A stretch of 64,000 nucleotides of DNA, from contig NZ_FNTQ01000001.1 of the NCBI RefSeq assembly GCF_900105755.1, positions 6,758,001-6,822,000 of the forward strand, read 5' to 3'. Below, one piece after another: positions 31,635 to 56,389 of the stretch. This DNA comes from Streptomyces sp. Ag109_O5-10. GTDB lineage: Bacteria > Actinomycetota > Actinomycetes > Streptomycetales > Streptomycetaceae. The notes beneath the pieces were generated by a model that searched no databases, had not been told where the DNA came from, and was given only the letters and a program-made list of their open reading frames with translations. The first letter of the stretch is position 1, and every line of letters starts with the position of its first letter. Position numbers and translations under genes: made by a program.

Positions 31635-34550
31635 ATGGCAGCCTCGTTCGGTTACGGCGGCAGCGGCGTAGCAGCGGTCCCGTTCCGGGTGCTCGGGCCG
31701 CTCGAGGTGAGCGGCGAGCGGGCGGCCGTGTCCGTGGCATCGGGGCGTCAGGAAATAGTCCTCGGAGCTCTGGTGCTCGAGCTGAACCGGATGGTGGAGA
31801 CCACCTATCTGGTGGACGCCATCTGGGCTCACCATCCGCCGAAGACCGCACGCGCCCAGGTGCAGATCTGCATCTCCCGGCTCCGCAGGGCGCTTTTGGA
31901 CGGGGGAGTCGACGCCACCATCGAGACCCGCGCCCGGGGCTACATCCTGAAGGCTCCGGAGGGCGCGACCGACGTCGGCAACTTCCGGCGCCTGGTCGCA
32001 GAGGCACACGCTCTGGCCCGTGACGGCCTGACGATGCCTGCGGTGGAGGCGCTTCGCTCGGCGACCGCCCTGTGGCGGGGGCGGTGCCTGGCCGGTGTAC
32101 CCAGCGAAGTCCTGGCCGGCACGGCAGCGCAGTGGGACGAGAGGCGCCTGGAGGCGGTGGAGACCTGCATGCGGCTGCAGCTGGAGCTGGGCCGTCACGA
32201 GCACCTGGTCGGTGAGCTGATGCAGCTCGTCGCGGGCCATCCGCTGCGTGAGCGGCTGCGCGGGTACCTCATGGTGGCGTTGTATCGTTCGGGCCGGCAG
32301 GCGGAGGCACTCGACGCCTACCACCAGGGCCGCGCGTTGCTCACCGAGGAACTCGGCCTGGACCCGGGCAGGGAACTGCAAGACCTCGCGCAAGCGATCC
32401 TCACCGACGACCCTGTCCTGGCACTGGCCGAACAACCCGAACCTCGTGCCGTCGTGGCGACGCAGGCCGCCCAGCCGGCGCAGGAGTCCGGTGCCGATCC
32501 CAACCCCGTCACCACCCCCCGGCAGCTGCCCGCCGACGTCTACGACTTCGTAGCCGACGACAAGATCGTCTCGGCGATCTGCGACGCCGTCACCGAAGGA
32601 CAGTGCAAAGGGCCGCTGAGCGTGGCCTTGGTACTCGGCGGGGCCGGTGTCGGCAAGAGCACGCTGGCCACGCACGTGGCGCACCGTCTGGCGGCCGAGT
32701 ACTTCCCGGACGGCCAGCTCTACTGTGATCTCGGAGGGCTGGGCGGCCGGCCGGTGGACCCGGCTCAGGCGCTGGGGCGATTCCTGCGGGCACTGGGCAT
32801 ACCCGGCGAGACCATCCCCGATTCACTCGACGAGCGCGCGGAGATGTATCGCAGCCTGCTGGCCGGTCGCCGGATCCTGGTGTTGCTGGACGACGCGGTG
32901 AGCGACTCGCAGGTGATGCCCCTGTTGCCCGGAACCGGCAGCAGCGGCGTGCTGGTCACCAGCCGCAGCCTGCACACGGCGTTGCCGGGTGCACACCGGT
33001 TCGACCTGGAGCCGCTGAGCACGGAGCAGGCCCTCCGACTGCTCGGAAGGATCGTCGGGGAGCGCCGGGTCGAGGGTGAGGCGGAGGCGGCGCGGGACCT
33101 CGTACGCCTGGTGGGCGGGCTGCCGCTCGCGCTGCGCATCGTCGGCGCGCGTCTGGCCGCGCGCCCGCACTGGTCACTGACCTTCATGCGGAACCGGCTC
33201 CAGAACGAGCACCGCGGGTTGGACGAGCTGGCACACGGAGAGCTGTCGATCCGGGCAAGTTTCTCCCTCAGCTACGAGGGCCTGACGGCGGCCGAACGTC
33301 GCCTTCTGTGCCTGCTCGGCCTGGCCGAGGGAACGGTGATTCCGAGCTGGCCGGGTGCCGCCCTCGCCGACGACCGCACGCCGTGCACCAACGACCTCTT
33401 GGAACGGCTCGTCGACACGCGGCTGCTCGACATCACGGCCATGGACCAGGACGGGGAGACCCGGTATGGGATGTCGCCCCTGGCGCGGACGTTCACCCGC
33501 GAACGGCTGGCCGCGGAGATTCCCGAGGCGGAACGTGTCGAAGCGGTGCGGCGCATGGTCGGTGGCTGGTTGGCACTCGCCGAGCGGGCGCACAAGGAGG
33601 TCTACGGCGGTCGGTACATGTTCGTGTCCGGCCGGGCCGAGCGCTGGCATCCGCCGGAGAACGTCGTGCTGCGGTGCCTCCGCGACCCGCTCGGGTGGCT
33701 GGAGAGCGAGCAGGAAAACCTTGTGGGCGCGGTGGAGTTGGCGGCCCGGTTCGGGCTGGACGAGCTGTGCTGGGAGTTGGCCACCAGTCTGGTGACGCTG
33801 TTCGAAGCCCGTGGCTGTCCCGACCTCTGGGAGCGCACCCATCGGGTGGCGCTGACCGCGGTGCAAGAGGCCGGCAACGAACGGGGCCGGGCGGCTGTTC
33901 TCGGCTCCTTGGGGACCCTGTACCTGCATCGGGGCGACTACAAGGCGGCGGGCCCTTACCTCAGCGCCGCCCTGGGGATGTTCGAGCGGGTCGGTGAGGT
34001 TCGTGGCCAGGCGCTGTCCTTGCGCGGCCTGGCGCGCATCGAGCGGCACCACGGTGACGACGACCGGGCCATGACCCTTTACGAGAGCGCCGAGCGGAAC
34101 TTCGGGCGGGTGGAGGACGTCATCGGTCGCGCGTATGTCCTTGGCGAGATGGCGCGCATCACGATGCGTCGAGCGGATTTCGCGCAGACCCGTACATATA
34201 TCGACGAAGCCCTCGGCATCTGCCGGTCGATCTGCTTCGACCGGGGCCAGGCCCTGTTGCTGCGGCGGCTGGGCCAGATGCTGATGTACCAGCAGCAGCA
34301 CGAGGCGGCGGAACGGATCCTGCTGGAAGTTCTCGCCATGGTCAGGGCGAGCGGCGATCTGGTCGTGGAGGGGTGTGTGCTGCACGACCTCGGCCGGGTC
34401 AATGCCGATCTGCGTCGCCCGGAACACGCCATCGAGTACTACTCGCAATCGGCCAGGATCCGGGAGCGGACCCTGGACCACGGCAAAGCCGCTGCTACAC
34501 GGGCCGACATCGTTGCCATCCTGGACAGGCCGGTGCCGTCGGTCGGCTGA
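31635..34550 (+). CDS. SARP-family activator with NB-ARC and TPR domains (AfsR-like)
   Basis: The protein has 971 residues. Domain order is winged helix plus bacterial transcriptional activator domain (about 10-260: FRVLGPLEVSGERAAVSVAS, AQVQICISRLRRALLDG, EELGLDPGRELQDL), an NTPase with Walker A GGAGVGKST (about 335) and VLLDDAVSD, then C-terminal TPR repeats (about 720-960). Such large SARPs are cluster-situated activators that bind 11-bp direct repeats near the -35 of biosynthetic promoters. ATG at 31635 follows GAAAGGG by five bases. Two matching operators occur at 45780 and 51501. Confidence 0.93.
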   Translation: MAASFGYGGSGVAAVPFRVLGPLEVSGERAAVSVASGRQEIVLGALVLELNRMVETTYLVDAIWAHHPPKTARAQVQICISRLRRALLDGGVDATIETRARGYILKAPEGATDVGNFRRLVAEAHALARDGLTMPAVEALRSATALWRGRCLAGVPSEVLAGTAAQWDERRLEAVETCMRLQLELGRHEHLVGELMQLVAGHPLRERLRGYLMVALYRSGRQAEALDAYHQGRALLTEELGLDPGRELQDLAQAILTDDPVLALAEQPEPRAVVATQAAQPAQESGADPNPVTTPRQLPADVYDFVADDKIVSAICDAVTEGQCKGPLSVALVLGGAGVGKSTLATHVAHRLAAEYFPDGQLYCDLGGLGGRPVDPAQALGRFLRALGIPGETIPDSLDERAEMYRSLLAGRRILVLLDDAVSDSQVMPLLPGTGSSGVLVTSRSLHTALPGAHRFDLEPLSTEQALRLLGRIVGERRVEGEAEAARDLVRLVGGLPLALRIVGARLAARPHWSLTFMRNRLQNEHRGLDELAHGELSIRASFSLSYEGLTAAERRLLCLLGLAEGTVIPSWPGAALADDRTPCTNDLLERLVDTRLLDITAMDQDGETRYGMSPLARTFTRERLAAEIPEAERVEAVRRMVGGWLALAERAHKEVYGGRYMFVSGRAERWHPPENVVLRCLRDPLGWLESEQENLVGAVELAARFGLDELCWELATSLVTLFEARGCPDLWERTHRVALTAVQEAGNERGRAAVLGSLGTLYLHRGDYKAAGPYLSAALGMFERVGEVRGQALSLRGLARIERHHGDDDRAMTLYESAERNFGRVEDVIGRAYVLGEMARITMRRADFAQTRTYIDEALGICRSICFDRGQALLLRRLGQMLMYQQQHEAAERILLEVLAMVRASGDLVVEGCVLHDLGRVNADLRRPEHAIEYYSQSARIRERTLDHGKAAATRADIVAILDRPVPSVG

Positions 34551-34553
34551 CAC

Positions 34554-35192: not shown

Positions 35193-35258
35193 ATGACCGT
35201 AGTGACCGGGGACGCGGTGACGCCCGCCCTGATGGCTCCCTACCGACGACATTGTTGA
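35193..35258 (+). CDS. 21-residue peptide ORF (leader or precursor candidate)
   Basis: ATG at 35193 is preceded by AAGGAG with seven bases spacing, as good a ribosome binding site as any in the window. The product is 21 residues and ends APYRRHC, with a C-terminal Cys. The stop is followed immediately by a hairpin (35259-35290). It lies 105 bases before the methyltransferase gene on the same strand. It could be an attenuation leader for the operon, a ribosomal peptide substrate for the cluster's ATP-grasp ligases, or chance. The last five codons use non-preferred third bases, unlike neighbouring genes. Confidence 0.45.
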   Translation: MTVVTGDAVTPALMAPYRRHC

Positions 35259-35363: not shown

Positions 35364-36119
35364 ATGAACCCCGAATTCTACTCGCGGGTTGCCGACGAGT
35401 TCGGCGAATATACCAGCGGCGGGCTTCGTACGGACGTCTTTCCGGACGGTGACCCGGAGGCTGCGTTCGACGAGCTGGCGAGGGCCCAGGGCGGCCCGGA
35501 CGGCCGGCTGGTCGACGTCGGCTGTGCCGACGGGCGCAGCCTGCTGAGGATCGCCCCGGCGTTCGGAAGCGTGCTCGGCATCGACATGTCGGCGTCGATG
35601 CTGGAGTCCGCCGAGCGGAGGCGCGCGGGGATGGGGCTGGAGCATGTCGGGTTCGAGCGGCGTGACGCGTCCCGTACCGGCCTTCCCGACGGGGAGGCCG
35701 ACGTGCTCACGTGCCGACGAGGGCCGTTGTTCCCCGCGGAGTTCCGCAGAGTGCTCAAGCCCGGCGGTCACCTGATCTACATGGGCATCGGCGAGACGGA
35801 TGTCCGCGAGCTGAAGGAGACCTTCGGCCGGGGGCAGCTCTACGGCCGCTGGGACGGCAGACCGGTGATGGACGAGGTGGTGTCGGAGCTCGTCGGAGCC
35901 GGTTTCACGGTGGTGCTGGAGAAGGCCTTCCGGACCGAGGAGTTCTACCACTCGCCGGTCGAACTCGACAGGTTCCTGCGCCAGGTGCCGATCTTCGAGG
36001 ACTACGACTCCGAGGCGGACCGCGTTCTGTTCGAACGCTATGTGGCATCGGCAAGCAGTGGTCGTGGTGTCCGGCTCGACCGGCACTGGTTCGTGGTCCA
36101 GGCGAGGAGGACGACATGA
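35364..36119 (+). CDS. Class I SAM-dependent methyltransferase
   Basis: The protein has 251 residues. SAM-binding motif I is LVDVGCADGRSLL, with the acidic ribose-binding residue in VLGIDMSASML. The post-II region has FRRVLKPGGHLIYMG. The start MNPEFYSRVADEFGEY fits the family; a GTG two codons upstream is possible. It is the first gene of the operon that contains the preQ0 genes, and its TGA overlaps the next ATG by four bases. The acceptor is unknown. Confidence 0.85.
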   Translation: MNPEFYSRVADEFGEYTSGGLRTDVFPDGDPEAAFDELARAQGGPDGRLVDVGCADGRSLLRIAPAFGSVLGIDMSASMLESAERRRAGMGLEHVGFERRDASRTGLPDGEADVLTCRRGPLFPAEFRRVLKPGGHLIYMGIGETDVRELKETFGRGQLYGRWDGRPVMDEVVSELVGAGFTVVLEKAFRTEEFYHSPVELDRFLRQVPIFEDYDSEADRVLFERYVASASSGRGVRLDRHWFVVQARRTT

Positions 36120-37375
36120 CGATCTTCGACGACCTCGAGTCCGAGGTCCGCAGCTACAGCCGGCTGTGGCCGGTCGTGTTCGACCGGGCACAGGGCAGCC
36201 GGCTGTTCTCCGAGGACGGCCGGCCCTACCTGGACTTCTTCGCCGGTGCGGGTGCGCTCAACTACGGTCACAACAACCCCTTCCTCAAGCAGGCCCTGCT
36301 GGACTACATCGTCCGGGACGGGGTCTCGCACGCGCTGGACATGTCCACCGTGGCGAAGCGGGACTTCCTGGAGACCTTCCAGGACCTCGTCCTGACGCCG
36401 CGGGAGCTGAGCTACAAGGTGGCGTTCCCCGGTCCGGGGGGCGCGAACGCGGTCGAGGCGGCGCTGAAGCTCGCCCGGCGGGTCACCGGACGGCAGTCGG
36501 TGGTGAGTTTCACCAACTCCTATCACGGGATGACCCTGGGGGCCCTCGCGGTCAGCGGCAACGCGACGAAGCGCGCGGCCGCCGGCGTGGCTCTGACCCT
36601 GACGACGGCGCTGCCCTACGACGGTTATCCGGGCATCGGGGAAACCGGCCCGCGCCACCTCGACCGGCTGTTGTCGGACCCGGGAAGCGGGCTGGACCGG
36701 CCGGCCGCCGTCATCGTGGAGACCGTTCAGGGCGAGGGCGGGCTGCGGGCCGCCGACGCGGACTGGCTGCGCGACCTCGCGGAGGTGTGCGAACGGCACG
36801 AGGTGCTGCTCGTCGTGGACGACGTCCAGATGGGCTGTGGCCGCACCGGGTCGTTCTTCAGCTTCGAGGACGCCGGGATCACCCCCGACCTGGTGTGTCT
36901 GTCCAAGTCCATCGGAGGGTTCGGCCTGCCGCTGGCTCTCACCCTCATACGGCCGGAGTTGGACGTCTGGAAACCGGGCGACCACAACGGGACGTTTCGC
37001 GGTGTCAGCGGGTCGTTCGTGACCGGGGCGCAGGCGCTGCGCTCCTACTGGAGCGACGGGACGCTGGAGAAGTCCACCCGCGAGCGAGCGGAGCGGATCG
37101 CGGCGGCCTTGGGCGCCGTCGCCGACGAGCACCCCGGGGAGGGAATGGAGGTCCGGGGCCGGGGATTCGCGGCCGGACTGCGGTTCACCACGCCCGGTGT
37201 GGCCCGCGCGGTGTGCGTCGCGGCCTTCGAGAACGGCCTGCTGATGGAGACCTCCGGTGCGGCCGGCGACGTGGTGAAACTGCTGCCCCCGCTGACCATC
37301 AGCGACGACGACCTGGACGAGGGTCTCGACATCATCCGTACCTGCGTGGCACGGGTGCTCAAGCGGACCAAGTGA
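36116..37375 (+). CDS. Class III PLP aminotransferase, EctB-like (diaminobutyrate aminotransferase type)
   Basis: The protein has 419 residues, the usual EctB length. Motifs: YLDFFAGAGALNYGHNNP, YKVAFPGPGGANAVEAALKL, SYHGMTLGALAVSGN, VDDVQMGCGRTGSFFSF (cofactor Asp) and the PLP Lys in CLSKSIGG. EctB converts aspartate semialdehyde to 2,4-diaminobutyrate. No ectA or ectC is present, so this copy probably supplies a diamino acid or aminates a related aldehyde for the cluster product. Coupled to the methyltransferase by ATGA. Confidence 0.85.
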   Translation: MTIFDDLESEVRSYSRLWPVVFDRAQGSRLFSEDGRPYLDFFAGAGALNYGHNNPFLKQALLDYIVRDGVSHALDMSTVAKRDFLETFQDLVLTPRELSYKVAFPGPGGANAVEAALKLARRVTGRQSVVSFTNSYHGMTLGALAVSGNATKRAAAGVALTLTTALPYDGYPGIGETGPRHLDRLLSDPGSGLDRPAAVIVETVQGEGGLRAADADWLRDLAEVCERHEVLLVVDDVQMGCGRTGSFFSFEDAGITPDLVCLSKSIGGFGLPLALTLIRPELDVWKPGDHNGTFRGVSGSFVTGAQALRSYWSDGTLEKSTRERAERIAAALGAVADEHPGEGMEVRGRGFAAGLRFTTPGVARAVCVAAFENGLLMETSGAAGDVVKLLPPLTISDDDLDEGLDIIRTCVARVLKRTK

Positions 37376-37387
37376 GAGGCCAAGGCT

Positions 37388-38386
37388 GTGCCAGGAAAGA
37401 TTCCCGAAGTCGACCTCGAGGCGTGGCACAAGGCGTCTGACGCCGAACGTGCGCTGATCTCCGCGGAGTTGGATGCCGCACTGCGCAACACCGGAATGTT
37501 CCTCGCGTCCGGGCACGGTGTGCCGCGAGCGGTGATCGACGACTTCCGGGACATCGCGAAGCGGTTCTTCGCGCTGCGCAAGGACGTCAAGGCCCGGTAC
37601 GCCATCGAGGCCGCGTACGACAGCGGGTGGCTGGAGATGCATCCCCCCGGCGGGGTCGGGGTGCCGGTGAGCGAGGGCGAGGACGCCCCGAGCGCGCCGG
37701 ATCTCCACGAGTCGTTCTACGTGGGGCCCGGTCACCGTACCGGCGACGAGCAGCGGGACCGCTTCAACTATCCGGCGAACCGCTGGCCGGTCGAGCTGCC
37801 GGAACTGCGGGTGGCGGCGGAGGCGTACACCACGCACATGGTGCGGGTGGTGCAGGCGGTCAACGAGGTGCTCGCGGTCACGCTGGGGCTGCCGGAGGAT
37901 TTCTTCACCTCGCGGGCGCGGCGGGCGACGTGGACGCAGAACGCCAGTTGGTACCCGTCGTACTCGAGCATCGGAGAGGTGGCCCGCGGTCAGTTCCGCA
38001 ACGGACCGCACACCGACCTGGGGACCGTCACGTTGCTGAGCCGGCAGCGCGGTGTGGGTGGGCTGCAGGCGTGGGACGAGGAGGGCTGGTTCTCCCCGCC
38101 CTACAGCCCGGACTCGCTCATCGTCAATCTCGGTGACCTGATGGAGCGGTGGACCGACGGCCGGTGGCGGGCGCTGAAGCACCGGGTGCTGCCGCCGAGC
38201 CCGTCGGCACCGGACGAGGAACTGCTCTCGCTGGTCTTCTTCTTCGAAACCGACCCCGACACGCTGATCGAGCCGTTGGCCGCTCCGATCGGCGGGGGCC
38301 GGGGGATGTCACCGGTGTACGCGCGGCGGAGCGTCCTGGAGACGCTCGGTGTCGCGCCCGACTCCATTCCGGGGGCCACGGCATGA
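37388..38386 (+). CDS. Isopenicillin N synthase-like Fe(II)/2-oxoglutarate oxygenase, altered 2OG site
   Basis: The protein has 332 residues. The N-terminal DIOX_N part has LRNTGMFLASGHGVP. The iron site is H-x-D in NGPHTDLGTVTLL with the distal His in RALKHRVL. Where the family has Arg-x-Ser to hold 2-oxoglutarate, this protein has Leu-Leu-Ser in EELLSLVFFFE. It may use another residue for the co-substrate or not use 2-oxoglutarate. Likely oxidises a cluster intermediate. GTG start at 37388, 12 bases after the aminotransferase stop. Confidence 0.85.
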   Translation: MPGKIPEVDLEAWHKASDAERALISAELDAALRNTGMFLASGHGVPRAVIDDFRDIAKRFFALRKDVKARYAIEAAYDSGWLEMHPPGGVGVPVSEGEDAPSAPDLHESFYVGPGHRTGDEQRDRFNYPANRWPVELPELRVAAEAYTTHMVRVVQAVNEVLAVTLGLPEDFFTSRARRATWTQNASWYPSYSSIGEVARGQFRNGPHTDLGTVTLLSRQRGVGGLQAWDEEGWFSPPYSPDSLIVNLGDLMERWTDGRWRALKHRVLPPSPSAPDEELLSLVFFFETDPDTLIEPLAAPIGGGRGMSPVYARRSVLETLGVAPDSIPGATA

Positions 38387-39063
38387 GCACAGTCGTCACC
38401 GTGGTGTCCGGCGGAATCGACTCGGTCACCATGGCGCATCACCTGGCCGCCGAGGGCCACGACCTTCAGGTGCTGGCCGTCGACTACGGCCAACGCCACC
38501 GCAAGGAGCTGCAGTTCGCCGCCGCCGCCGCACAGCGGCTCGGCGCGCCGTACGAAGAGGTCGATCTGCGCTCGCTGCGCGGCGTCATGCGCGGATCGTC
38601 GCTGACGGATCCGTCCGTGGCCGTGCCCCGCCCGGATCGGCCGGTCGGCGGGAACCCGAACATCGTGCCGAACCGCAACGCCGTACTGCTGTCGGTGGCC
38701 TTCGCGCTGGCGGTCACCGTGCGGGCCGATGCCGTCGCCTTCGGCGTCATGGCCGAGGACGTCGGCCCGTCCGACACCTCTCCGGAGTTCCTGCGGCTGT
38801 TCCTCGAGATGGAGCGGGTGGCGACGAGGGGTTCGCTCCGGCCCGAGGTCGAACTGCTCGCCCCGCTGATCGAACTGCCGAAGACCGGGGTCGTGGCTCT
38901 CGGCGAGAAGCTCGGCGTGCCCTGGGACCAGACCTGGACCTGCTTCCGCGGTGAGGACATCCACTGCGGCGCGTGCGCGGCGTGCGTGGAGCGACGCGGG
39001 GCTTTCGCGGACCTCGGCATCACGGACCCGACGGTCTACCGCGAAGCGTGGACACCGCGGTGA
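38383..39063 (+). CDS. queC: 7-cyano-7-deazaguanine (preQ0) synthase QueC
   Basis: The protein has 226 residues. It converts 7-carboxy-7-deazaguanine and ammonia, with ATP, to preQ0. PP-loop SGGIDS is near residue 9, VDYGQRH follows, NRNAVLLSVA is conserved, and zinc ligands are in CFRGEDIHCGACAACVERR. It overlaps the oxygenase stop by four bases, then QueE, QueD and FolE follow, giving the full pathway from GTP. A chromosomal housekeeping queuosine pathway is not expected in Streptomyces, so this copy serves secondary metabolism. Confidence 0.95.
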   Translation: MSTVVTVVSGGIDSVTMAHHLAAEGHDLQVLAVDYGQRHRKELQFAAAAAQRLGAPYEEVDLRSLRGVMRGSSLTDPSVAVPRPDRPVGGNPNIVPNRNAVLLSVAFALAVTVRADAVAFGVMAEDVGPSDTSPEFLRLFLEMERVATRGSLRPEVELLAPLIELPKTGVVALGEKLGVPWDQTWTCFRGEDIHCGACAACVERRGAFADLGITDPTVYREAWTPR

Positions 39064-39115
39064 CCGCCGCCGGCCGCCTCACCGGTGGCCCCGACACGGA
39101 AGGACGCGGTGCCGC

Positions 39116-39829
39116 GTGGAACCGGAACTCGTAGTCAACGAGATCTTCGGCCCGACCGTCCAGGGCGAGGGCCGGTCCCTCGGCCGCAGGTGCGCGTTCC
39201 TGCGGCTCGGCGGATGCAACCTGTCGTGCACATGGTGCGACACGCCCTACACCTGGGACTGGACCGGAGCGGGCGACTCCGGGGTCGCGTACGACCCCCA
39301 CCAGGAGTTGCACCGCCGTCCCGTCCGCGAGGTCGCCGAGGAACTCCTAGCGTTCGGCGTCGAGCTGATCGTCATCTCCGGCGGCGAGCCGCTCGGCCAG
39401 CAGCGCCGACTGGTCCCACTGGTCGAGCTGCTCACGGCGCGAGGCCTGGAGATCGAGATCGAGACCAACGGGACCCACGCGGCGGACCCGGCCCTGGTGG
39501 CCGCCGGAGTGCGCTTCAACGTCTCGCCGAAGCTGGCCCACTCGGGTGACGCGGCCCACCGGCGGATCGTGCCGGCCGCGCTGAAGAGCCTCGCGGCGAC
39601 CGACGGCACCACCTTCAAGTTCGTCTGCCGCGACACCCGAGACCTGGACGAAGTGGCCGCGCTGGTCTCGGAGTTCGGGCTCGACCCGGTCTGGATCATG
39701 CCGAAGGGGCAGACCGGCGCCGAGGTGGGCCGGCACATGGCCGAGCTGGCCGACGCGGTGATCGAACGGGGCTGGAACCTCACCACACGCCTGCACACCT
39801 TGTTGTGGGGCGACAAACGAGCTGTCTGA
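39116..39829 (+). CDS. queE: 7-carboxy-7-deazaguanine synthase QueE (radical SAM)
   Basis: The protein has 237 residues. It rearranges 6-carboxytetrahydropterin to 7-carboxy-7-deazaguanine. The 4Fe-4S cluster motif is C-x3-C-x2-C in GGCNLSCTWCDTPY. Substrate and SAM-binding parts include GPTVQGEGRSLG, VISGGEPL, IEIETNGT and NVSPKLAHSG. GTG at 39116 is used because the product then starts close to the family start (ELVVNEIFGPTVQGEG). It follows queC by 52 bases. Confidence 0.95.
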   Translation: MEPELVVNEIFGPTVQGEGRSLGRRCAFLRLGGCNLSCTWCDTPYTWDWTGAGDSGVAYDPHQELHRRPVREVAEELLAFGVELIVISGGEPLGQQRRLVPLVELLTARGLEIEIETNGTHAADPALVAAGVRFNVSPKLAHSGDAAHRRIVPAALKSLAATDGTTFKFVCRDTRDLDEVAALVSEFGLDPVWIMPKGQTGAEVGRHMAELADAVIERGWNLTTRLHTLLWGDKRAV

Positions 39830-39868
39830 ACGCACGGCCGAATCAAGCGAGAAGGACGAATCACGGAC

Positions 39869-40231
39869 ATGACGCTGCGCATCACGAAGAAGTTCGAGTT
39901 CTCCGCCAGCCATCGGCTCTCCGGCCTGGACGAGGGACACCAGTGCGCCCGGCTGCACGGCCACAACTACGTCGTCGAGCTGGAGCTGAGCGCCGATCTC
40001 ACCGAACTGACACCGACGGGATTCGTCCGCGACTACGGCGAGCTGGCCTCCTTCAAGTCGTGGCTCGACCAGACGCTCGACCACCGTCACCTCAACGACC
40101 TGGTGGACGACAACCCCACCGCCGAGAACCTCGCGGTGTGGCTCTACGAGTGCTGGTCGAAGGAGTTCCCGGAGCTGACCTCCGTGCGTGTCTCCGAGAC
40201 TCCCAAGACCTGGGCCGAGTACCGGCCCTGA
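39869..40231 (+). CDS. queD: 6-carboxy-5,6,7,8-tetrahydropterin synthase QueD
   Basis: The protein has 120 residues. It converts dihydroneopterin triphosphate to 6-carboxytetrahydropterin. Zinc His residues are in FSASHRL and LHGHNY, the catalytic Cys is in EGHQCARLHGHNY, the Asp-His pair is in LDHRHLN and the pterin-anchoring Glu in PTAENLAVWLY. A good GAGAAGGA ribosome site precedes the ATG. Confidence 0.95.
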   Translation: MTLRITKKFEFSASHRLSGLDEGHQCARLHGHNYVVELELSADLTELTPTGFVRDYGELASFKSWLDQTLDHRHLNDLVDDNPTAENLAVWLYECWSKEFPELTSVRVSETPKTWAEYRP

Positions 40232-40314
40232 AACGCCGGCCGGCTGACGAGAGCAGCCGCCCGTTCATCGGAATCGAGCAACGGCCGTGCCGGTCGGAAT
40301 GGAGAGGTGCCTGA

Positions 40315-45739: not shown

Positions 45740-45779
45740 TGAACACCTCAAGCAGAGAAGTATGGGGAAAACGGTGTTT

Positions 45780-47909: not shown

Positions 47910-48563
47910 TCAGTCGTCCAGTACGGCCAGCGCCCGCGCGGGCGCGCCGTCTCCACCGCTGACGTTGAGCACACCGACGAAGAGCGTGCTCCATCGGTCC
48001 GCGATCTCGCGCAGTACGAGGTTCTCCACGATCAGCATGCCGGCGCCCAGCAGCGTGCGGTGCACGTCGTAGGGGAAGTTCGCCGGACGCATGCTCATCG
48101 GCAGGTCCGGGCTGATGGTGTCCATGCCGATGAGGCGAAGCCCCGTGTCCACGGCCCAGCGGGCCGCGTCGACCGCGAGGTAGGGGTGGCTGTCCACATA
48201 GGCCGGCTCGCCGTAGCGGTCGTCCCAGCCGGTGCGGATCAGCAGCGCGTCACCGGGTTCGAGGTCGACGGCGGACTTCAGGTCGGCCGCCGTGATCGGC
48301 ACGGGATCGTCCCGCAGCACCTCGATGCAGTACGCCCGGCCGACCAGCGTCGACACCGGCACCTGGTCGAGCGTGGCGCCGTCCTCGACGAAGTGCGACG
48401 GGGCGTCCACGTGGGTGCCGATGTGGGTCGGTATGTTCAGGCGCATGACCCGCATCCGGTCGTCCGCCCAGGTGCTGGTGGGCGTGAATTCGGGTGCCTG
48501 GATCGTGCGCGCGTGCGGCATACCCGTTTCCAGCGGGCGGGAGAGATCAACTGTACGTGGCAT
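47910..48563 (-). CDS. Cyclase/kynurenine formamidase-family metal hydrolase (PF04199)
   Basis: The protein has 217 residues. The family motif H-x-G-T-H-x-D-x-P-x-H is seen in IPTHIGTHVDAPSHF. The latter part has GDALLIRTGWDDRYG, RLIGMDTISPDLP and the late AGMLIVENLVLREI. PF04199 members hydrolyse amides or close rings using divalent metals. In the cluster it could open or close a lactam or remove a formyl group. It lies between the TauD-like oxygenase and the ATP-grasp pair on one operon. Confidence 0.85.
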   Translation of the reverse strand: MPRTVDLSRPLETGMPHARTIQAPEFTPTSTWADDRMRVMRLNIPTHIGTHVDAPSHFVEDGATLDQVPVSTLVGRAYCIEVLRDDPVPITAADLKSAVDLEPGDALLIRTGWDDRYGEPAYVDSHPYLAVDAARWAVDTGLRLIGMDTISPDLPMSMRPANFPYDVHRTLLGAGMLIVENLVLREIADRWSTLFVGVLNVSGGDGAPARALAVLDD

Positions 48564-48588: not shown

Positions 48589-49476
48589 TTAGTTGGCTCG
48601 TCCGTCTTCCTGCACCCCGTAGATTCGGCGCAGCCTGCGGTGGGAGGTGGTCTCCTGGAACGGCCGGCGGCCGTGCAGCATGCGCCGGTTGTCCCACAGC
48701 AGGCCGACGCCGCGTTCGAGGAGCACGGCTTCCGCGTTCACCGCCGCGGCAGCGGAGACCTGGTCGAATGCGTCCATGGCCGCCAGAAGCTCCGGCGGAA
48801 CCGGCGTACCTTCGGCGGCAAAGGCCTGCTCGATGTACATGCGGACGTAACGCAGTTCGTAGCCGTTGTCCGTGCGCGTCAGCACCGGCTGCCGTTTGAT
48901 CTTGACTCCGGCCATCTGGTCCTTCACGTCGAACGGTACGGGTCGGCTCAGTTCGGCGACGTGGGCCGGGTCGATCCGGTCGAGCTCCCGAACCAGGTTC
49001 TCGACGTCCATCAGCAGCGTCTCCCCGCCCGTCGCCGCGGACAGGCCGAACAGGAAGGCGACGTCGGGCAGTTGCGGCAGCAGGGTGCCGTCGGTGTGAT
49101 AGTTGCCCGTCTTGTTCGAGTTCGAGTAGTGGCTGGTGGCCGCGGCCGCGGCCTTGACCTCGACGGGATAGATGAGTTCGCCGGAGCTGTACTGCGGAAC
49201 CGGGCGGAAAAGCAGCGTGAAGAAATTCCAGTAGACGGTGCTGATGTCCTGGTCGCTGAGTCCCTCCGGGGCGACCCGCACGACGGCGCCCCCCGCGTCC
49301 TTGCGGATGGCCGAGACTATGTCGCCACGCAGCGCCTGGATCTCCGTGTCGGCCGTCGGGAAGGTCTCCGTCGGCCACTTGTCCAGAGGCGTTTCAGCGT
49401 CTATTTCTCGCGTCAGCAGTGCCGAGACCGCCGAGCTGGATATCTTGAACTCCGGGATCGTGAATTCCGTTGCCAT
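48589..49476 (-). CDS. TauD/TfdA-family Fe(II)/2-oxoglutarate oxygenase
   Basis: The protein has about 295 residues. The iron site H-x-D is in KTGNYHTDGTLLP and the distal His in RRMLHGRRPF with the 2-oxoglutarate Arg following in SHRRLRRIYG. Related enzymes (clavaminate synthase-like) hydroxylate free or tethered amino acids. Start ATG at 49476 (MATEFTIPEF) is preferred; an ATG five codons upstream at 49491 is possible. It follows the glutamate mutase gene and may act on its product. Confidence 0.85.
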   Translation of the reverse strand: MATEFTIPEFKISSSAVSALLTREIDAETPLDKWPTETFPTADTEIQALRGDIVSAIRKDAGGAVVRVAPEGLSDQDISTVYWNFFTLLFRPVPQYSSGELIYPVEVKAAAAATSHYSNSNKTGNYHTDGTLLPQLPDVAFLFGLSAATGGETLLMDVENLVRELDRIDPAHVAELSRPVPFDVKDQMAGVKIKRQPVLTRTDNGYELRYVRMYIEQAFAAEGTPVPPELLAAMDAFDQVSAAAAVNAEAVLLERGVGLLWDNRRMLHGRRPFQETTSHRRLRRIYGVQEDGRAN

Positions 49477-49536
49477 CGTGACTCTGCCCATTTCTGTGAG
49501 GAGATCGGTGCGGCTTGGTCGGCGATCAGGGGTTTT

Positions 49537-51456
49537 TCACGCGTCGAGCGGCCACTTACGGTAATGGCCCGATGGAATGCGCAGCACATCTCGCTCGACG
49601 AGTTGCCATTCGCTTCGCACGGGCGGCTGCTCCGTCCTGCGACGCTCGCTCATCCGGCTCCGATGGAACTCGATCACATCGGAGGAGAACCTCAGCCGGC
49701 CGGTGTTCAGGTAGCGCACCGCGCCCTGGACGTCCCGGGCCGTCAGGACCTCGCCACGGTTGTAGACGCTGGGGGAGAAGGGCACGTCCAGATAGCCGAG
49801 CGCGAATGCCTTCACCACGCCGTCCGTGAGGCTGCCGTCGCCGGCCAGGAGGACGCTCTCGAGGATCTGATCAACCTCGGCCCGCAGGACGGTGGCCTCC
49901 TCGCGGACCGTCCGCTCGTCCACCTCGACGCCGTTCGCCTCCAACGCGCCCAGCCGGCTCAGCTGCAGGCCCTCCTGGTTGTCGGACACCGACGGAATGG
50001 AGGTCGCCTCGACCGGTGTCTTGGTGATCAGCCGCGAGGCACCGGACAGCCGGCCGGTGGCCGCGGAGGCCACGATCAACTGCGCCGCCCGCGCCCGGTC
50101 CTGCGGAAACGCCGCCATGTGCTGGTGGAACACGACGTTGACCTGAACTCCTGGATATCCCAGGTTCGCCAGATACTTCTGGCCCAGTTCGCGCAGGACC
50201 CTGACCGCCGCGATGTCCTGGGACCGGTTTCCTTGTTCGGCGTATCCGAGTGAAACCGATCCCACGCCCTGGCCGGCCGCCAGCATGGCCTCGATCACAT
50301 TGACGACGATCGCCAGACTCGGCGGGATCAGGACCGCGGTGAGAGTGCCGAAGAATTCACGGTCGATGACCACTCCGAACTTCTCGCGGTAGAGACCGAC
50401 CAGCCGATCGACGTACTGCCATCTCCTGAGGGACTGGGCCGGTGAGTAGTCCTTGAAATAGGGGATGTTGTACGTGATCGCGCCCCCCTCGAAACCGGTG
50501 ACGCCACCGGCGCACGAGATCTCGGCGAGGAGCCGTGGGTCGCGAGTGCTGTGTCGGGTCTGCAGCGGTGTCCGCACCTCCGATATCAGCTCGCGGAGAA
50601 CGTCGACCCCGTGATTCACCATGGGGAATCCGTTGAGCGTGGAGGCACCGCTTTCCCGACTCTCCGCGATCGCGTCGTGGGCCTTCCGGTAGTCGTTGTT
50701 CCTGGTGAGCGAATCGATCTGGTAGGACAGCACGTCCGCGCCGGCCCGGCGCAGGGCCACGAAGGCCGTGCGCTGCTCGGCGGCAAGCGCCACGCCCGAG
50801 CGCGGCTGCACCAGGAACGGTCGCGCCCCCCGGGGGCCCGGTGCGTGCGCGTGCGCGAAGGACGGCTGCCGCAGCAGGAAAGCCGCGTTGTCCGCCAGGT
50901 CCCGCGCACGAGCGCCGGTCGGCCAGGACTCCAGCACCGCGGGCCGCTGTTTGAGCAGGTCCTCTTCGGTGAGCCGCTGGTCGGGCGGTGCGGTGCCCGG
51001 CTGGGCGGGCCGGAAGGCGGCGACCGGTCTGGCGCGTACCGCCGGAGGCCTGGTCAGGAGATCCTCGGCCAGCACCGAGAGAATCGTCGGAATGTCGACG
51101 TACGTCGGAAAGACCCGCCGGAAGCCGAGCCGGCGCGCTTCACCGCGTATCCGCTCGGAATTGCCCACGTCCAGGTTCCCACCGGCATACCAGAGCGCGT
51201 CGATGTCGGGATACCTGAGCAGCAGGTCCGGAAACTGCCTCAGATAATGGCGCAGATGCCCGTCCATGCACGAAATCATCACGACATCCACGTCGCCCGC
51301 ATGCCGGAAAAAGTCGTCGAGGTTGTTCTGCGTGCCCATGAAATGGACCGCGTGGCCGGCCTCCGTGATGGCGTGTTTCAGCAGTGTCAGACCCACTGAA
51401 TGGGCATCGGCGCCGATCCCGCCGAGTGCGATCGACCGTGGCGTCGGCAATGGCAT
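49537..51456 (-). CDS. Fused adenosylcobalamin-dependent glutamate mutase (GlmS-GlmE type)
   Basis: The protein has 639 residues. Residues 1-140 form a cobalamin-binding domain with D17-x-H19-x-x-G22 in GADAHSVG, and YAGGNLDVGN and later GFRRVFPTYVDI as in the sigma subunit. Residues about 165-639 match the epsilon catalytic subunit (STLNGFPMVNHGVDVLREL, PQDRARAAQLIVASA, STLNGFP motif). The enzyme interconverts L-glutamate and threo-3-methylaspartate. Elsewhere the two parts are usually separate proteins. It heads the minus-strand operon under operator site B. Confidence 0.9.
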   Translation of the reverse strand: MPLPTPRSIALGGIGADAHSVGLTLLKHAITEAGHAVHFMGTQNNLDDFFRHAGDVDVVMISCMDGHLRHYLRQFPDLLLRYPDIDALWYAGGNLDVGNSERIRGEARRLGFRRVFPTYVDIPTILSVLAEDLLTRPPAVRARPVAAFRPAQPGTAPPDQRLTEEDLLKQRPAVLESWPTGARARDLADNAAFLLRQPSFAHAHAPGPRGARPFLVQPRSGVALAAEQRTAFVALRRAGADVLSYQIDSLTRNNDYRKAHDAIAESRESGASTLNGFPMVNHGVDVLRELISEVRTPLQTRHSTRDPRLLAEISCAGGVTGFEGGAITYNIPYFKDYSPAQSLRRWQYVDRLVGLYREKFGVVIDREFFGTLTAVLIPPSLAIVVNVIEAMLAAGQGVGSVSLGYAEQGNRSQDIAAVRVLRELGQKYLANLGYPGVQVNVVFHQHMAAFPQDRARAAQLIVASAATGRLSGASRLITKTPVEATSIPSVSDNQEGLQLSRLGALEANGVEVDERTVREEATVLRAEVDQILESVLLAGDGSLTDGVVKAFALGYLDVPFSPSVYNRGEVLTARDVQGAVRYLNTGRLRFSSDVIEFHRSRMSERRRTEQPPVRSEWQLVERDVLRIPSGHYRKWPLDA

Positions 51457-51500
51457 TGGCTACCTCGATCGAGCGGAGGAGTGCGGGGCAAGTGTTGTGT

Positions 51501-51562: not shown

Positions 51563-51694
51563 AGTGCGCGTTTAGTGGCTCAACTGCCTCTCCGAACAGC
51601 AATGGACGCCTTGCGGCACGTGACAGTGACGTGTACGAATTGAACCGTAGGAATCTGCGGGAGCAACCAGGTTATGGTGAGGAAGGGTTACCCG

Positions 51695-52609
51695 ATGGCC
51701 GGCATACTCAGCGATAGTCAGGTCGATTTCTACCGTGAGAACGGGTTCTGTGTCGTCGACGGAATTTTCGACACCGAACTGGTCGAGAAGGCGCGATCCG
51801 TGGTCGACGGCCTGCTCTCCTCCGCCGACCTCGCCCGGGTGGCCGAGGCGGAGCCGGAGGACAGCTCCAAGGCTCGCCGTATCTGGGCCCCGACCTCGCG
51901 GGACGAGCTCTTCTCCGACATCGCGGAGGACCCCCGGCTCCTCGACGCGGTCGAGCAACTGATCGGTTCCGACATCGTGCTGCAGTACTCGAAGCTCAAC
52001 GTGAAGCCGCCGCGCGTGGGCAGCGTCGTCGAGTGGCACCAGGACTTCGCGTTCTACCCGCACACGAACACCGATCTGGTCGCCACGCTGATCTATCTCG
52101 ACGACGCGACCAGGGCGAACGCCTGCCTGCGGGTGGTCGCCGGGTCGCACCGGCACGGCCTTCTCCCGCACGAGGCGGAGGGTTATTTCGTGGGCAAGGT
52201 CTCGTCGCCGGCGGAGGTGGGCCTGGACGAGTCGGCGATCGTCGACTGCGAGGGGCCCGCCGGATCGGTGGTGTTCATCCACCCCCTCCTCCTGCACTCC
52301 TCGGAGAAGAACCTCTCGGACATGTACCGCCGCGTCTTCATCCCCTCCTACCGCGCGGCCGACGCCCTTCCCGTCTACTACGGCCCGCACGCCGCGCACA
52401 ACGAGCCGACGGCGAAGCTCGTGCGCGGCAGTGCCTCCAGGACCGTGCGCAGCGAGGCCGGCCAGTGGCGACTCCCGATCGCGGCCGCGGAGTTCAACTC
52501 GTTGTACCAGGTTCAGGAAGGCTCTCACGTGAGCGACGGAACGAAGCTGTCCACCGGCTACTTCTCCCACGAGTACGACACGAAGGACGCGGTGCGCACC
52601 TCGATGTGA
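51695..52609 (+). CDS. PhyH-family Fe(II)/2-oxoglutarate oxygenase
   Basis: The protein has 304 residues. Iron ligands are in EWHQDFAFYPH (H-x-D) and in IHPLLLHSSEKN, with the 2-oxoglutarate Arg in DMYRRVFIPSYR. It starts MAGILSDSQVDFYRENGFCV, a normal family start. ATG at 51695 is chosen because GGAAGGG lies eight bases upstream, seven codons inside a longer frame. Relatives hydroxylate or halogenate amino acids and ectoine; no halide-type site (Ala or Gly for Asp) is seen, so hydroxylation is likely. Confidence 0.87.
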   Translation: MAGILSDSQVDFYRENGFCVVDGIFDTELVEKARSVVDGLLSSADLARVAEAEPEDSSKARRIWAPTSRDELFSDIAEDPRLLDAVEQLIGSDIVLQYSKLNVKPPRVGSVVEWHQDFAFYPHTNTDLVATLIYLDDATRANACLRVVAGSHRHGLLPHEAEGYFVGKVSSPAEVGLDESAIVDCEGPAGSVVFIHPLLLHSSEKNLSDMYRRVFIPSYRAADALPVYYGPHAAHNEPTAKLVRGSASRTVRSEAGQWRLPIAAAEFNSLYQVQEGSHVSDGTKLSTGYFSHEYDTKDAVRTSM

Positions 52610-52674: not shown

Positions 52675-53928
52675 ATGACCAGCTCGCTCGGCGCAACGCC
52701 CGCTGTCGTGCTCATGGACCCCTGCGGGCCGAGCATGGGTTTCAAACCCCAGGTGGCCGAGCGCGGAATGGCCGTGATCTCCGTGTACACGATGCCCCGC
52801 GAGCACCTCGGGACCCGGTACCCCGACCACACCGTCGGTGACACGGTCAGCCTGTACGCCGCGGAACTCGACGACATCCGGGCCCAACTCGCCGCACTGG
52901 GTGCCGACATTCGCGCGGTGGTGCCCGCCAACGACGTGGCCGTGGACAAGGCGGACACGCTGGCCGAGGAGTTCGGCCTGCCCGGCAACGGCGCGCGGCT
53001 GGCCCTCGCCCGCCGGGACAAGTCCGCGATGCGGGAGACCGCCGCGCGGTCGGGAGTTCGCATTCCCCGTTACGTGATGGTCGAGGACGCGGCCGGCATC
53101 GCCCGAGCCGCGCGCGACGTGGGCTTCCCCGCCATCGCCAAGCACACGGGCGGGGCCGGGTCGCACGGTATCCGGCTGCTGAGCGGACCGGGGGACGTCG
53201 AGGACCTTTCGGCCCTGCACCGGACCGACCACTTCGGACGGCCGGTCGAGGCCTGGCTCGTCGAGCAGTACGTGCGCGGGCGGGAGTTGGGCGTGAACTT
53301 CTTCTCGCACGACGGCACGCACCACGTCCTGGACATCTGGGAGTACCGGCAACCCGACGACCGGGACTACTCGTTCCCGTACTGGGAGTGGGCGCAGATC
53401 TCCCAGGACGACCCCGACTGGCAGACCGCGGTCGACTACGTACGGCAGGTGCTCGACACGTTCGGCGTGCGCCTGGGCCCCAGCCACACCGAGATCAAGA
53501 TGTCGGCCGGCGAGCCCTACCTCATCGAACTGGGCGCCCGGCTGCCCGCCTACCCCATGATCGACGCGTGGCTCGCGCACAGCGATCTCGACCCGCACCG
53601 CCAGACCCTGGCCGGCCGGCTCGGCGAGGTGCCGAAGATCGCGACCGAGCCGGTGAAGTTCGACGGCTACTGCGGCGCCAACGCCATTCGCAACGACGGA
53701 CCGGCCGGCCGGCTGGTGGAGATCCGCGGGCTGGACGAGGTGGAGCGACTGCCCGGTGTGGACAAGCTGGTGGTGCGCTACCGGCCGGGCGACATGGTGC
53801 CGACCACCACCAGTATCGCGACCATTCCGCTCAGGGTGAGTGTCTCCGCGCCGGACCGCCGGACGCTGATCCAGCGCATGGCCGCGGTCCGCGACACCGT
53901 GGAACCAGTGATCGAACCGGTCTGCTGA
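52675..53928 (+). CDS. ATP-grasp ligase, paralogue of the one at 43408
   Basis: The protein has 417 residues. It shares with the 43408-44670 product the segments GLPGN, the ATP-binding loop in FPAIAKHTGGAGSHGIRLL, AWLVEQYVRGRELGVNFF, IWEYRQPDDRDYSFPYW and the metal Glu region EPYLIELGARLPAYP. It probably forms a peptide-type bond in the product. Strong AAGGAG before the ATG. Followed by an exporter and another ATP-grasp gene in one operon. Confidence 0.88.
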   Translation: MTSSLGATPAVVLMDPCGPSMGFKPQVAERGMAVISVYTMPREHLGTRYPDHTVGDTVSLYAAELDDIRAQLAALGADIRAVVPANDVAVDKADTLAEEFGLPGNGARLALARRDKSAMRETAARSGVRIPRYVMVEDAAGIARAARDVGFPAIAKHTGGAGSHGIRLLSGPGDVEDLSALHRTDHFGRPVEAWLVEQYVRGRELGVNFFSHDGTHHVLDIWEYRQPDDRDYSFPYWEWAQISQDDPDWQTAVDYVRQVLDTFGVRLGPSHTEIKMSAGEPYLIELGARLPAYPMIDAWLAHSDLDPHRQTLAGRLGEVPKIATEPVKFDGYCGANAIRNDGPAGRLVEIRGLDEVERLPGVDKLVVRYRPGDMVPTTTSIATIPLRVSVSAPDRRTLIQRMAAVRDTVEPVIEPVC

Positions 53929-53933
53929 TCCCG

Positions 53934-55175
53934 ATGAAGTTCTTGTCCTCGTACCGCGAGCTCTTCGCTCTGCCCAAGTTCGGCTCGTCCCTGTTCGCCG
54001 CTGTCGCGGGCAAGCTGAAGCCAGGAATCTCCTCGGTCGCCCTCCTGCTCGAGGTCGCGCACTACCGGGGCCTCGGCCAGGCGGCCGTGGTGGTCTCGGT
54101 GTCCGCCCTGGCCGGTGCCACCGTCCCGCTGCGGGGCAGGCTCATGGACCGCCACGGCTATGTCCGGGTGATGTGTCCGGGGCTCGTGGTGTACCTGGGC
54201 GCGCTGACCGTCCTGGTGTGGAACGAGAGCGCCCGTGGACCGTCCGCCACCACGATGGTCTGCGCGTTCGTCGCCTCGGCGTCGCTCCCGCCCATCCATA
54301 TCGTGACCCGGCTGATGTGGCGCGCGATGACCACGGACGACCTGAGGAGATCGATCCTGTCGCTGGACGCCGTGCTGACCGACGTGGGATACATCGTGGG
54401 TCCCACCATCGCCGCCTTCCTGGTGGTGGCCGTGGCGCCCTGGGCCGGCCTGGCCGCCTCCGCGCTGCTGACCACCAGCGCGACCCTCCTGCTGCTCTCC
54501 CGCAAGCTGCCGCACCAGCGCCGGCAGCCGCGGTCCGCGGAGCGCCACTGGCTGGGCCCGCTGCGCGACCGGGCGGTGCGCCGGACCATGGTGGCGGTGG
54601 TGGCCTTCTTCGTGGCGGTCCGCGCGATCGAACTGGCCTTCCCCGCCTGGGCCCAGCAGCACCACGCACCGCTGATGAGCGGAGTGCTCCTCAGCTGCAT
54701 GTCGGTGGGGAGTATGGCGGGCGGCCTCGCCCTGGGCGCCCTGCCGGCCGGGAGGGCGAGCCGGGCCACGTTCCCGGTCACGCTGGCCGTGCTGTCCGTG
54801 GGAACTCTGCTGGTGGCGGCGGCCACCTTCACCTGGACGGCACTCCTGGTCGTGGCCGCGGCGGTCATGGGCATCGCGGTGGGGCCCAGTTTCGTGGCCC
54901 TGTGGGCGACGGTCGGTGATCTGTCTCCGGAGAACCTGGCCGCGGAGACCCAGTCGTGGATCAGTTCGTTCATGTCGTTGGGCGGCGCTGTCGGGGCGGC
55001 GGCCAGCGGTCTGGTCATCCAGGCGCTGGGGCCGGGGGCGCTGCTGCTTCTCGCGGGGCTGGCCCTCGCCCTGGCCTCCGGGCTGGCGCGCCTGGCGATC
55101 AGCGGCAGACCGATGACGTCGGAACAGGTGCCGGGAGTCGATACCCGTCGCGCCGTGAATGCGGAGGTGCAGTGA
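53934..55175 (+). CDS. MFS exporter
   Basis: The protein has 413 residues with about 12 membrane helices (for example GLAASALLTTSATLLLLS, TMVAVVAFFVAVRAIEL, VLLSCMSVGSMAGGLALGAL). The loop LRGRLMDRHGYVRVM resembles the conserved G-x-x-x-D-R-x-G-R-R motif of the family. It sits between two ATP-grasp ligase genes, and its stop overlaps the next GTG by four bases. It most likely exports the cluster product and gives self-protection. Confidence 0.88.
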   Translation: MKFLSSYRELFALPKFGSSLFAAVAGKLKPGISSVALLLEVAHYRGLGQAAVVVSVSALAGATVPLRGRLMDRHGYVRVMCPGLVVYLGALTVLVWNESARGPSATTMVCAFVASASLPPIHIVTRLMWRAMTTDDLRRSILSLDAVLTDVGYIVGPTIAAFLVVAVAPWAGLAASALLTTSATLLLLSRKLPHQRRQPRSAERHWLGPLRDRAVRRTMVAVVAFFVAVRAIELAFPAWAQQHHAPLMSGVLLSCMSVGSMAGGLALGALPAGRASRATFPVTLAVLSVGTLLVAAATFTWTALLVVAAAVMGIAVGPSFVALWATVGDLSPENLAAETQSWISSFMSLGGAVGAAASGLVIQALGPGALLLLAGLALALASGLARLAISGRPMTSEQVPGVDTRRAVNAEVQ

Positions 55176-56389
55176 CTCGTCAACGGGTAGTCCTGGTCAG
55201 CCATGTCGATTACGGCGCCTACCGCTTCGACGACGGCACCCCCTTCTTCCCCCCGGACGAATACGACATCACCCTGCTCGCGCGAGCTCGCGACCTCGCC
55301 CAGGTGACACCCGGTCAGGTGACGCGCTGTATCCCGGTGGACATCCACCCCTCCGGCGAACTCGCGGGGTCGCTGCCGGAACTGGTCGGTGACCTCGAGT
55401 TCGACTGGGTGGTGGCGACCCAGGAGCGGCTGCTGCTGCCGGCCGCCCGCCTGCGCGAGACCGTGGGCGTCGGCGGCATGGGCACGGAGCACACGCTGCT
55501 GCTCCGCGACAAGGTGGCGATGAAGCGCCATTTCTCCGCGCACGGGATCCGGGTTCCGGAATACATGGAGATCTCCGAACCCGTCCAGGCGGCAGAGCTT
55601 CTCGACAAGTTCGGTCACATCGTCGTCAAGCCAGTCCTCGGCTCCTCTTCCCTGGACGTGCGCATCGTCCGCGACAGGAGCGAGCTGATGCGCTTGCAGC
55701 AACAAGGGTTCGCCGGTCCAGGCCGGTACGAGGCCGAGGAATTCATCGCGGGCCGCCAGTTCCACATCGACAGCGTCGTCGACAACGGTGTGCCGGTCGC
55801 CGTCTCCGTCTCGCAGTATCTGGACTCGCACGAGGAGTTTCCGCTGGACGGGCAGGTCCGGTCGCACACCCTCGACGACGGGCCGGACCTCGAAGTCCTG
55901 CTGGAGTTCAACCGCGCGGTACTCGCGTGCATCTCCTGGTTCAGTGGCGCCGCACACCTCGAAGCGTTCCTCGACGACCGGGGGAGGGCGGTGTTCTGCG
56001 AGTTGGCCGGCCGTCCCGGCGGCGCCGGAATAGACACCACATTTCGGTATCGGCACGGGGTCTCGCTGCTTTTCGCCAGCATCCTGCCGCAGATCGGGCG
56101 CGCTGTCCCTCACAGCGGTCGTCAGGCGCCCGTGGACCAGCCGGCGACCGGTTGGTCCATGATCTATCCGCCGAGGCTGGGGCGCTTCGACGGGTTCGAC
56201 GCGCTTCCGCGGGCCGAGTGGTTGCTGCAGCTCACGGCGCCGTACCGCCCGGGCGAACTCGTCAGGCCGCCCAGGCAGGCCAAGGACGCGGTCGCGGTCG
56301 CATCCGTCTGCGGCAAGGACGCAGCCGAGGTCGTCGGCCGGCTCGCCGAGGTCAAGAGCGAGCTCGTCGTGTCCATCACCCCGGAGTGA
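55172..56389 (+). CDS. ATP-grasp ligase (carnosine synthase-like subfamily)
   Basis: The protein has 405 residues. The ATP-binding Lys and loop are in GHIVVKPVLGSSSLDVRIV, preceded by LLRDKVAMKRHFSAHGI. RYEAEEFIAGRQFHIDSVVD and the metal site VFCELAGRPGGAGID are typical of peptide-forming ATP-grasp enzymes. It is not close to the other four in the cluster, so at least three ligase subfamilies are present. Last clear member of the plus-strand operon. Confidence 0.88.
   Translation: MTRQRVVLVSHVDYGAYRFDDGTPFFPPDEYDITLLARARDLAQVTPGQVTRCIPVDIHPSGELAGSLPELVGDLEFDWVVATQERLLLPAARLRETVGVGGMGTEHTLLLRDKVAMKRHFSAHGIRVPEYMEISEPVQAAELLDKFGHIVVKPVLGSSSLDVRIVRDRSELMRLQQQGFAGPGRYEAEEFIAGRQFHIDSVVDNGVPVAVSVSQYLDSHEEFPLDGQVRSHTLDDGPDLEVLLEFNRAVLACISWFSGAAHLEAFLDDRGRAVFCELAGRPGGAGIDTTFRYRHGVSLLFASILPQIGRAVPHSGRQAPVDQPATGWSMIYPPRLGRFDGFDALPRAEWLLQLTAPYRPGELVRPPRQAKDAVAVASVCGKDAAEVVGRLAEVKSELVVSITPE

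Follow-up and report, generated by a model that had tools for sequence, protein, structure and literature searches.

A Streptomyces gene cluster with a remodelled QueC, a candidate source of amino-acid conjugates of 7-deazaguanine-7-carboxamide

What does a Streptomyces strain make with a full set of 7-deazaguanine genes placed among ATP-grasp ligases and enzymes of unusual amino acids? The question is raised by a gene cluster of Streptomyces sp. Ag109_O5-10, which lies in a 64,000-nucleotide stretch of contig NZ_FNTQ01000001.1 (positions 6,758,001 to 6,822,000 of the forward strand; hereafter the window, whose own numbering is used below) in a Streptomyces-type host genome of 9.46 Mb. A preliminary description had proposed that FolE, QueD, QueE and QueC here make 7-cyano-7-deazaguanine (preQ0), and that ATP-grasp ligases attach several non-protein amino acids to the deazaguanine core through amide bonds, with no conversion to a nucleoside. 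Comparison of the sequences points to a different version of this idea: the product is probably 7-deazaguanine-7-carboxamide bearing at least one non-protein amino acid, with a remodelled QueC that would work without its nitrile-forming turn.

The four deazaguanine genes do stand in one operon (35364-40908), which encodes a methyltransferase, EctB, an isopenicillin-N-synthase-like oxygenase, QueC, QueE, QueD and FolE from co-directional genes whose ends overlap or nearly abut. The QueC gene (38383-39063, plus strand; assigned by profiles, alignments, tree and predicted fold) encodes 226 amino acids and scores 139.6 against TIGR00364, under the cut-off of 150.3. The protein keeps the canonical SGGIDS, YGQRHRKE and VPNRN motifs, the Lys and the zinc cysteines C(x7)CxxCxxC, and is altered at two positions (E. 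coli numbering): its YPDC motif reads PSDT and Tyr189 is replaced by Phe. A mutational study in E. coli found two residues each to be essential for preQ0 formation, Tyr131 in YPDC and, next to the zinc site, Tyr189 (PMC13329287). In an alignment with solved structures, the Pro of the window protein sits opposite the Tyr of QueC. The predicted model (predicted local distance difference test, pLDDT, 91.6; no ligand position given) confirms membership of the QueC family, its best fold matches being QueC and, second, Cap9, a QueC relative of the type IV cyclic-oligonucleotide-based antiphage signalling system (CBASS).

The same two replacements mark a whole clade. QueC was searched for in two overlapping Streptomyces samples, of 296 and then 393 genomes, and across 395 genomes from the class, and the regions around 62 QueC genes were compared, the window included. 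Thirteen of these QueC proteins form one clade (support 94/94, 95% of bootstraps), found in 13 of the 393 sampled Streptomyces genomes, and none of the 13 has the tyrosine pair: Tyr131 is replaced by Pro, Ala or Gly, and Tyr189 by Phe or, once, Met. Among the 49 other loci, Tyr131 is kept in 46 and Tyr189 in 47, and two of the exceptions are divergent QueC-like proteins (L105 and L106). These two, from the same genus, have SGGIDS, lack YGQRH, VPxRN and YPDC, and sit on a very long branch. The clade keeps the guanine-reading Asp, the ATP loop (SGGVES in one member, G761), YxQxHxxE, VPxRN and the zinc cysteines. With its ATP and zinc motifs and its guanine-reading Asp intact, the remodelled QueC would still be expected to bind ATP and 7-carboxy-7-deazaguanine (CDG), and the loss of both tyrosines argues against its being a normal nitrile synthase. 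Thus, of the claim that the four enzymes make preQ0, the gene set stands, while the preQ0 step is doubtful because two essential tyrosines are replaced throughout the clade. A role in queuosine synthesis was also considered and rejected, since the host genome has no tRNA-guanine transglycosylase that the remodelled QueC could serve (PF01702, 0 matches; 14/14 controls positive).

The neighbourhood of the clade is equally consistent. A hidden Markov model was built from three window proteins of the L-amino-acid-ligase (LAL) type of ATP-grasp; in fetched stretches of 13-40 kb, which made the search radius unequal among loci, a LAL-type ATP-grasp gene lay within 10-15 kb of the remodelled QueC at 13/13 clade loci versus 1/49 of the others. 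A phosphoribosyltransferase gene was found nearby at 0/13 clade loci versus 10/49 others. The pairing of remodelled QueC with an ATP-grasp had been drawn from nine clusters and held in four more from newly drawn genomes, and nine new canonical QueC loci also followed the rule. These counts support the core of the earlier idea, in which amino acids are attached to a 7-deazaguanine and no nucleoside is formed. The sole exception among the 49 (L094:9550-12939), from another actinomycete family, has a canonical-motif QueC (YPDC, SCY) with a LAL-like ATP-grasp about 1.3 kb away and is possibly a separate deazaguanine-ligase cluster.

The co-occurrence of que genes, fused glutamate mutase and ATP-grasps, looked for in the sampled genomes, recurs in two of them (G080 and G676), where the whole cluster is present at about 70-94% protein identity with its blocks inverted and without the ATP-grasps B and C described below. 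The recurrence of the whole gene set in two other genomes excludes chance. The more distant members share the four preQ0 genes, together in 13/13 clusters, and differ in what accompanies them. The minimal cluster, G005, has a methyltransferase, the remodelled QueC, EctB, an oxygenase, QueD, QueE, FolE, one ATP-grasp and a major facilitator superfamily (MFS) protein; G199 has DapD-like, aminotransferase and LysA-like genes, G036 a gene of the beta-eliminating lyase/threonine-aldolase type, and the G137-type cluster an aspartyl-hydroxylase-type gene and a PF10014 oxygenase. A constant deazaguanine core with varying amino-acid genes thus describes a modular cluster family. The remodelled QueC of G137 is located at 5185314; the S. 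lydicus 103 region 5150871-5208226, which holds this type of QueC, has been listed as toyocamycin, 30% (PMC5357945).

The preliminary description had placed five ATP-grasp proteins in the window cluster. All five genes are present, but as a cluster core they were over-counted, and we rejected that view because B and C are missing from both orthologous clusters, which leaves only three as core. These are ATP-grasps A (43408-44670, minus strand; profiles), whose orthologue is the sole ATP-grasp of the minimal cluster G005, D (52675-53928, plus strand) and E (55175-56389, plus strand; D and E by profiles and solved relatives). All three are of the LAL type by PF13535 and/or LAL_C2, although the LAL_C2 score of E is slightly below the cut-off (29.1 vs 29.4), and their closest solved relatives are L-amino-acid ligases. 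B (45910-46881, minus strand; profiles) and C (46893-47819, minus strand) form a tandem RimK-like pair (45910-47819) that, among the three orthologous clusters, only the window strain carries. C, a degenerate paralogue of B (42% identity), is without the ATP-binding Lys and Gly-rich loop and is probably inactive. A sequence search with B gave no solved relative, and C as query gave, beyond the window, just weak RimK-like matches (27-31% identity) in genomes without the remodelled QueC.

Several neighbouring genes would supply or modify amino acids. The EctB gene (36116-37375, plus strand), which the preliminary description overlooked while every gene class that it did name was confirmed, encodes a diaminobutyrate-2-oxoglutarate transaminase at equivalog level (TIGR02407, 613 bits against a cut-off of 552; solved homologue 6rl5). 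It is a dedicated second copy, 62% identical to the other copy in the genome at C1:7230618. The oxygenase that follows it (37388-38386, plus strand) is an isopenicillin-N-synthase-like Fe(II) enzyme by Pfam, alignment and solved homologues; it keeps HxD..H, and in the alignment the Arg of RxS is Leu in the window, G080 and G005, so that its use of co-substrate may be unusual. The fused glutamate mutase GlmS-GlmE (49537-51456, minus strand), expected to form 3-methylaspartate, scores 448 bits against TIGR01503 (MutE; cut-off 390) and has the B12-binding DxHxxG as DAHSVG at residue 17, which places it among glutamate mutases. Two further Fe(II)/2-oxoglutarate oxygenases were assigned by profile, one of TauD type (48589-49491, minus strand) and one of PhyH type (51674-52609, plus strand). 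The three oxygenases, the fused mutase and a fumarylacetoacetate-hydrolase (FAH)-family enzyme, all named in the preliminary description, were thus recovered by profile searches. Its DmpG-like aldolase fared less well: the protein (44705-45751, minus strand) matches HMGL/DmpG profiles and keeps the metal His pair, but it has Tyr in place of the catalytic His of the solved 1nvm, 8ih7 and 4lrs and lacks the DmpG communication domain PF07836, and an aldolase reaction is therefore not to be assumed.

A scan for glutamate mutase gave five loci, of which only two are close, in Actinosynnema and Actinocrispum (63-64% identity). Both are non-ribosomal peptide synthetase (NRPS) loci without a recognisable homologue of the window que genes. 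The mutase is thus an amino-acid module that other clusters share, and it does not mark the cluster family. The mutase and a TauD gene also lie close together in the NRPS setting of Actinocrispum, and this proximity suggests 3-methylaspartate, or a compound derived from it, as the TauD substrate. The locus in Actinocrispum wychmicini (L040:6192-13492) encodes an acetaldehyde dehydrogenase, a true DmpG, a methyltransferase, a FAH-like protein, the fused glutamate mutase, an Asp/Glu racemase-like protein and TauD, adjoining NRPS-type genes; its amino-acid module is partly common to the window.

How might these enzymes work together? By family membership, FolE, QueD and QueE would convert GTP to CDG. 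The remodelled QueC would activate the CDG carboxylate with ATP and, omitting the second, nitrile-forming turn, would either free the primary amide or hand the acyl group to the amine of an amino acid, for example EctB-derived diaminobutyrate. Ligases A, D and E would attach further amino acids, such as diaminobutyrate, 3-methylaspartate supplied by the fused glutamate mutase, or forms oxidised by the Fe(II) oxygenases; the methyltransferase would tailor the product and the MFS protein export it. It is because both tyrosines are replaced and preQ0 formation is doubtful that QueC itself, and not the ATP-grasps, may make the amide from CDG. A more specific proposal, which we put forward tentatively and with less than even confidence, is that the remodelled QueC is a small-molecule deazaguanylase, that is, a free-standing amide ligase moving activated CDG to free amino acids, with diaminobutyrate the likely acceptor here, and that with its ATP-grasp ligases it founds a new modular family of natural products built from deazaguanine and amino acids.

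Several points weigh against a carboxamide conjugate made in this way. In E. coli, part of the activity survived the Tyr131Phe change, and the nitrile-forming step could be regained through compensating changes. In Cap9, the precedent for amide formation, the YxDC Tyr is still present, and the chemistry of that enzyme thus leaves the loss of this residue from the remodelled QueC unexplained. The CDG carboxylate is free, so an ATP-grasp alone could form the amide, and the substrates proposed for all the ligases are deduced from neighbouring genes. The 13 clade members share one ancestor, and their link with ATP-grasps is thus a conserved linkage and not 13 independent gains. Searches of the openly accessible literature gave no cluster of deazaguanine genes with ATP-grasp or amino-acid ligases, and the preliminary description knew of no compound with this gene set; subscription journals were mostly outside this survey, and a described product could be missed.

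These points lead to the alternatives. If the remodelled QueC were a normal preQ0 synthase despite its changes, the product would hold 7-cyano- or 7-aminomethyl-deazaguanine with amino acids attached elsewhere. The largely intact QueC motifs and the constant company of the four preQ0 genes (13/13 clusters) favour this, but the clade-wide replacement of two residues essential in E. coli (PMC13329287) does not, and among the annotated genes we recognised neither a QueF-like nor a nitrile-processing enzyme, although no search was specifically aimed at these; we regard this explanation as unlikely. It seems to us quite improbable that amidation of CDG falls to the ATP-grasp ligases alone and that the remodelled QueC has another role, such as supplying a thio- or ester-linked form or just the primary carboxamide: LAL-type enzymes do couple a carboxylate to an amine, and A, D and E appear to be catalytically competent, but the retention of a CDG-activating enzyme in 13/13 clusters would be left unexplained.

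The remaining two explanations are much weaker candidates. Cap9 (PMC11996544) is a precedent for the first, that the remodelled QueC deazaguanylates a protein or ribosomal peptide, in which case the ATP-grasps would be peptide-modifying ligases; however, A, D and E match ligases of free amino acids, and enzymes that make amino acids are present in many of the clusters, so that we consider such a role highly improbable. A nucleoside resembling toyocamycin or tubercidin, as automatic annotation suggests for S. lydicus 103 (PMC5357945), would account for FolE, QueD, QueE and QueC, which such clusters have in common with ours. It was rejected, and we give it hardly any credence, as a phosphoribosyltransferase occurs in 0/13 clusters. 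In addition, the toyocamycin-like locus in our sample (L072) has IMPDH-like, adenylosuccinate lyase, PurA-like and phosphoribosyltransferase genes and a QueC with canonical YPDC, and lacks an ATP-grasp. A 7-deazaguanine-7-carboxamide joined to amino acids thus remains the reading that we favour.

The cluster core spans about 35.4-56.4 kb, with gene classes assigned by profile searches (Pfam and TIGRFAM-type cut-offs, e.g. TIGR02407, TIGR00364 and TIGR01503). Besides the genes above, its operon encodes an S-adenosylmethionine (SAM)-dependent methyltransferase (35364-36119; Pfam), found in 9/13 clusters of the clade, QueE, a radical SAM CDG synthase with the motif CNLSCTWC (39098-39829; profiles, motif), QueD, a 6-carboxytetrahydropterin synthase (39869-40231; profiles), and FolE, a GTP cyclohydrolase I (40315-40908; profiles), all on the plus strand. 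Profiles also identify a regulator with helix-turn-helix and AAA domains (40972-42441, plus strand; 72-77% identity in G080 and G676), the FAH-family enzyme (42471-43328, plus strand; 82-85% identity in the same two), a PF04199 cyclase/arylformamidase-like hydrolase (47910-48563, minus strand) and the predicted MFS exporter (53952-55175, plus strand), which lies near ATP-grasp or que genes in 8/13 clusters. Upstream is an AfsR/SARP-type regulator (31506-34550, plus strand; BTAD, NB-ARC and TPR domains by Pfam), a relative of which, 77-80% identical, adjoins the remodelled QueC in G137, G194, G266, G705 and G746. Downstream are two probable accessory genes assigned by profile, for an alpha/beta hydrolase (56739-57542, plus strand; kept in G080, not found in 40 kb of G676) and a HisC-like aminotransferase with a second copy in the genome (57526-58650, plus strand). 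The tested open reading frames of 31.5-58.6 kb include no NRPS, polyketide synthase, phosphoribosyltransferase or nitrile hydratase, in agreement with the preliminary description. Two glutamine-synthetase-like genes lie nearby (58720-60543 and 21722-22864, the latter matching only part of the catalytic domain), and an FAD hydroxylase with a SchA/CurD-like cyclase (61028-63960) apparently starts a separate type II polyketide cluster for spore pigment.

Recent work on phage defence showed enzymes of the QueC family attaching deazaguanine to proteins (PMC11996544). If our proposal is true, the same scaffold has been redirected to secondary metabolism, with a two-residue signature by which further cases can be found, and the residues that separate nitrile from amide synthesis in QueC become directly testable. 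It would also point to a family of Streptomyces metabolites still to be characterised (13/393 genomes), at least one of them automatically labelled toyocamycin-like.

Among known systems, the toyocamycin, sangivamycin, tubercidin and huimycin clusters likewise use FolE, QueD, QueE and QueC for a 7-deazaguanine core. Those clusters have a canonical QueC (a motif that we checked only at the toyocamycin-like L072) and phosphoribosyl or sugar transfer, whereas the window has a remodelled QueC, no phosphoribosyltransferase and none of the toyocamycin-type combination of that gene with purine-type tailoring genes, and instead LAL-type ATP-grasps and amino-acid enzymes. The compounds echiguanine A and B are 7-deazaguanine 7-carboxamides. 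Searches of the openly accessible literature gave no gene cluster for them; they are the one named lead to the product of the window cluster, and no more than a lead. A figure legend places these compounds, from Streptomyces sp. MI698-50F1, in one group with cadeguomycin and tubercidin (PMC6112128, Fig. 1). The bacilysin (BacD), rhizocticin (RizA) and dapdiamide (DdaF) clusters use ATP-grasp L-amino-acid ligases to join unusual amino acids without an NRPS, as we propose here. We know of no such dipeptide cluster with deazaguanine enzymes. The closest enzymes are Cap9, which activates CDG and couples it to an amine as an amide in protein deazaguanylation (PMC11996544), and QatC (PMC13279940), both with the QueC-family fold of the remodelled QueC. 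The window protein is not of the Cap9 type, having PSDT for YxDC, 226 residues and no CBASS-type genes among its profiled neighbours. Cap9 shares with the remodelled QueC the lack of a Tyr189 equivalent, but it has a truncated fold, retains YxDC and serves defence by modifying the N-terminal Gly of a protein, whereas the remodelled QueC is of full length, has lost the Tyr and belongs to metabolite clusters.

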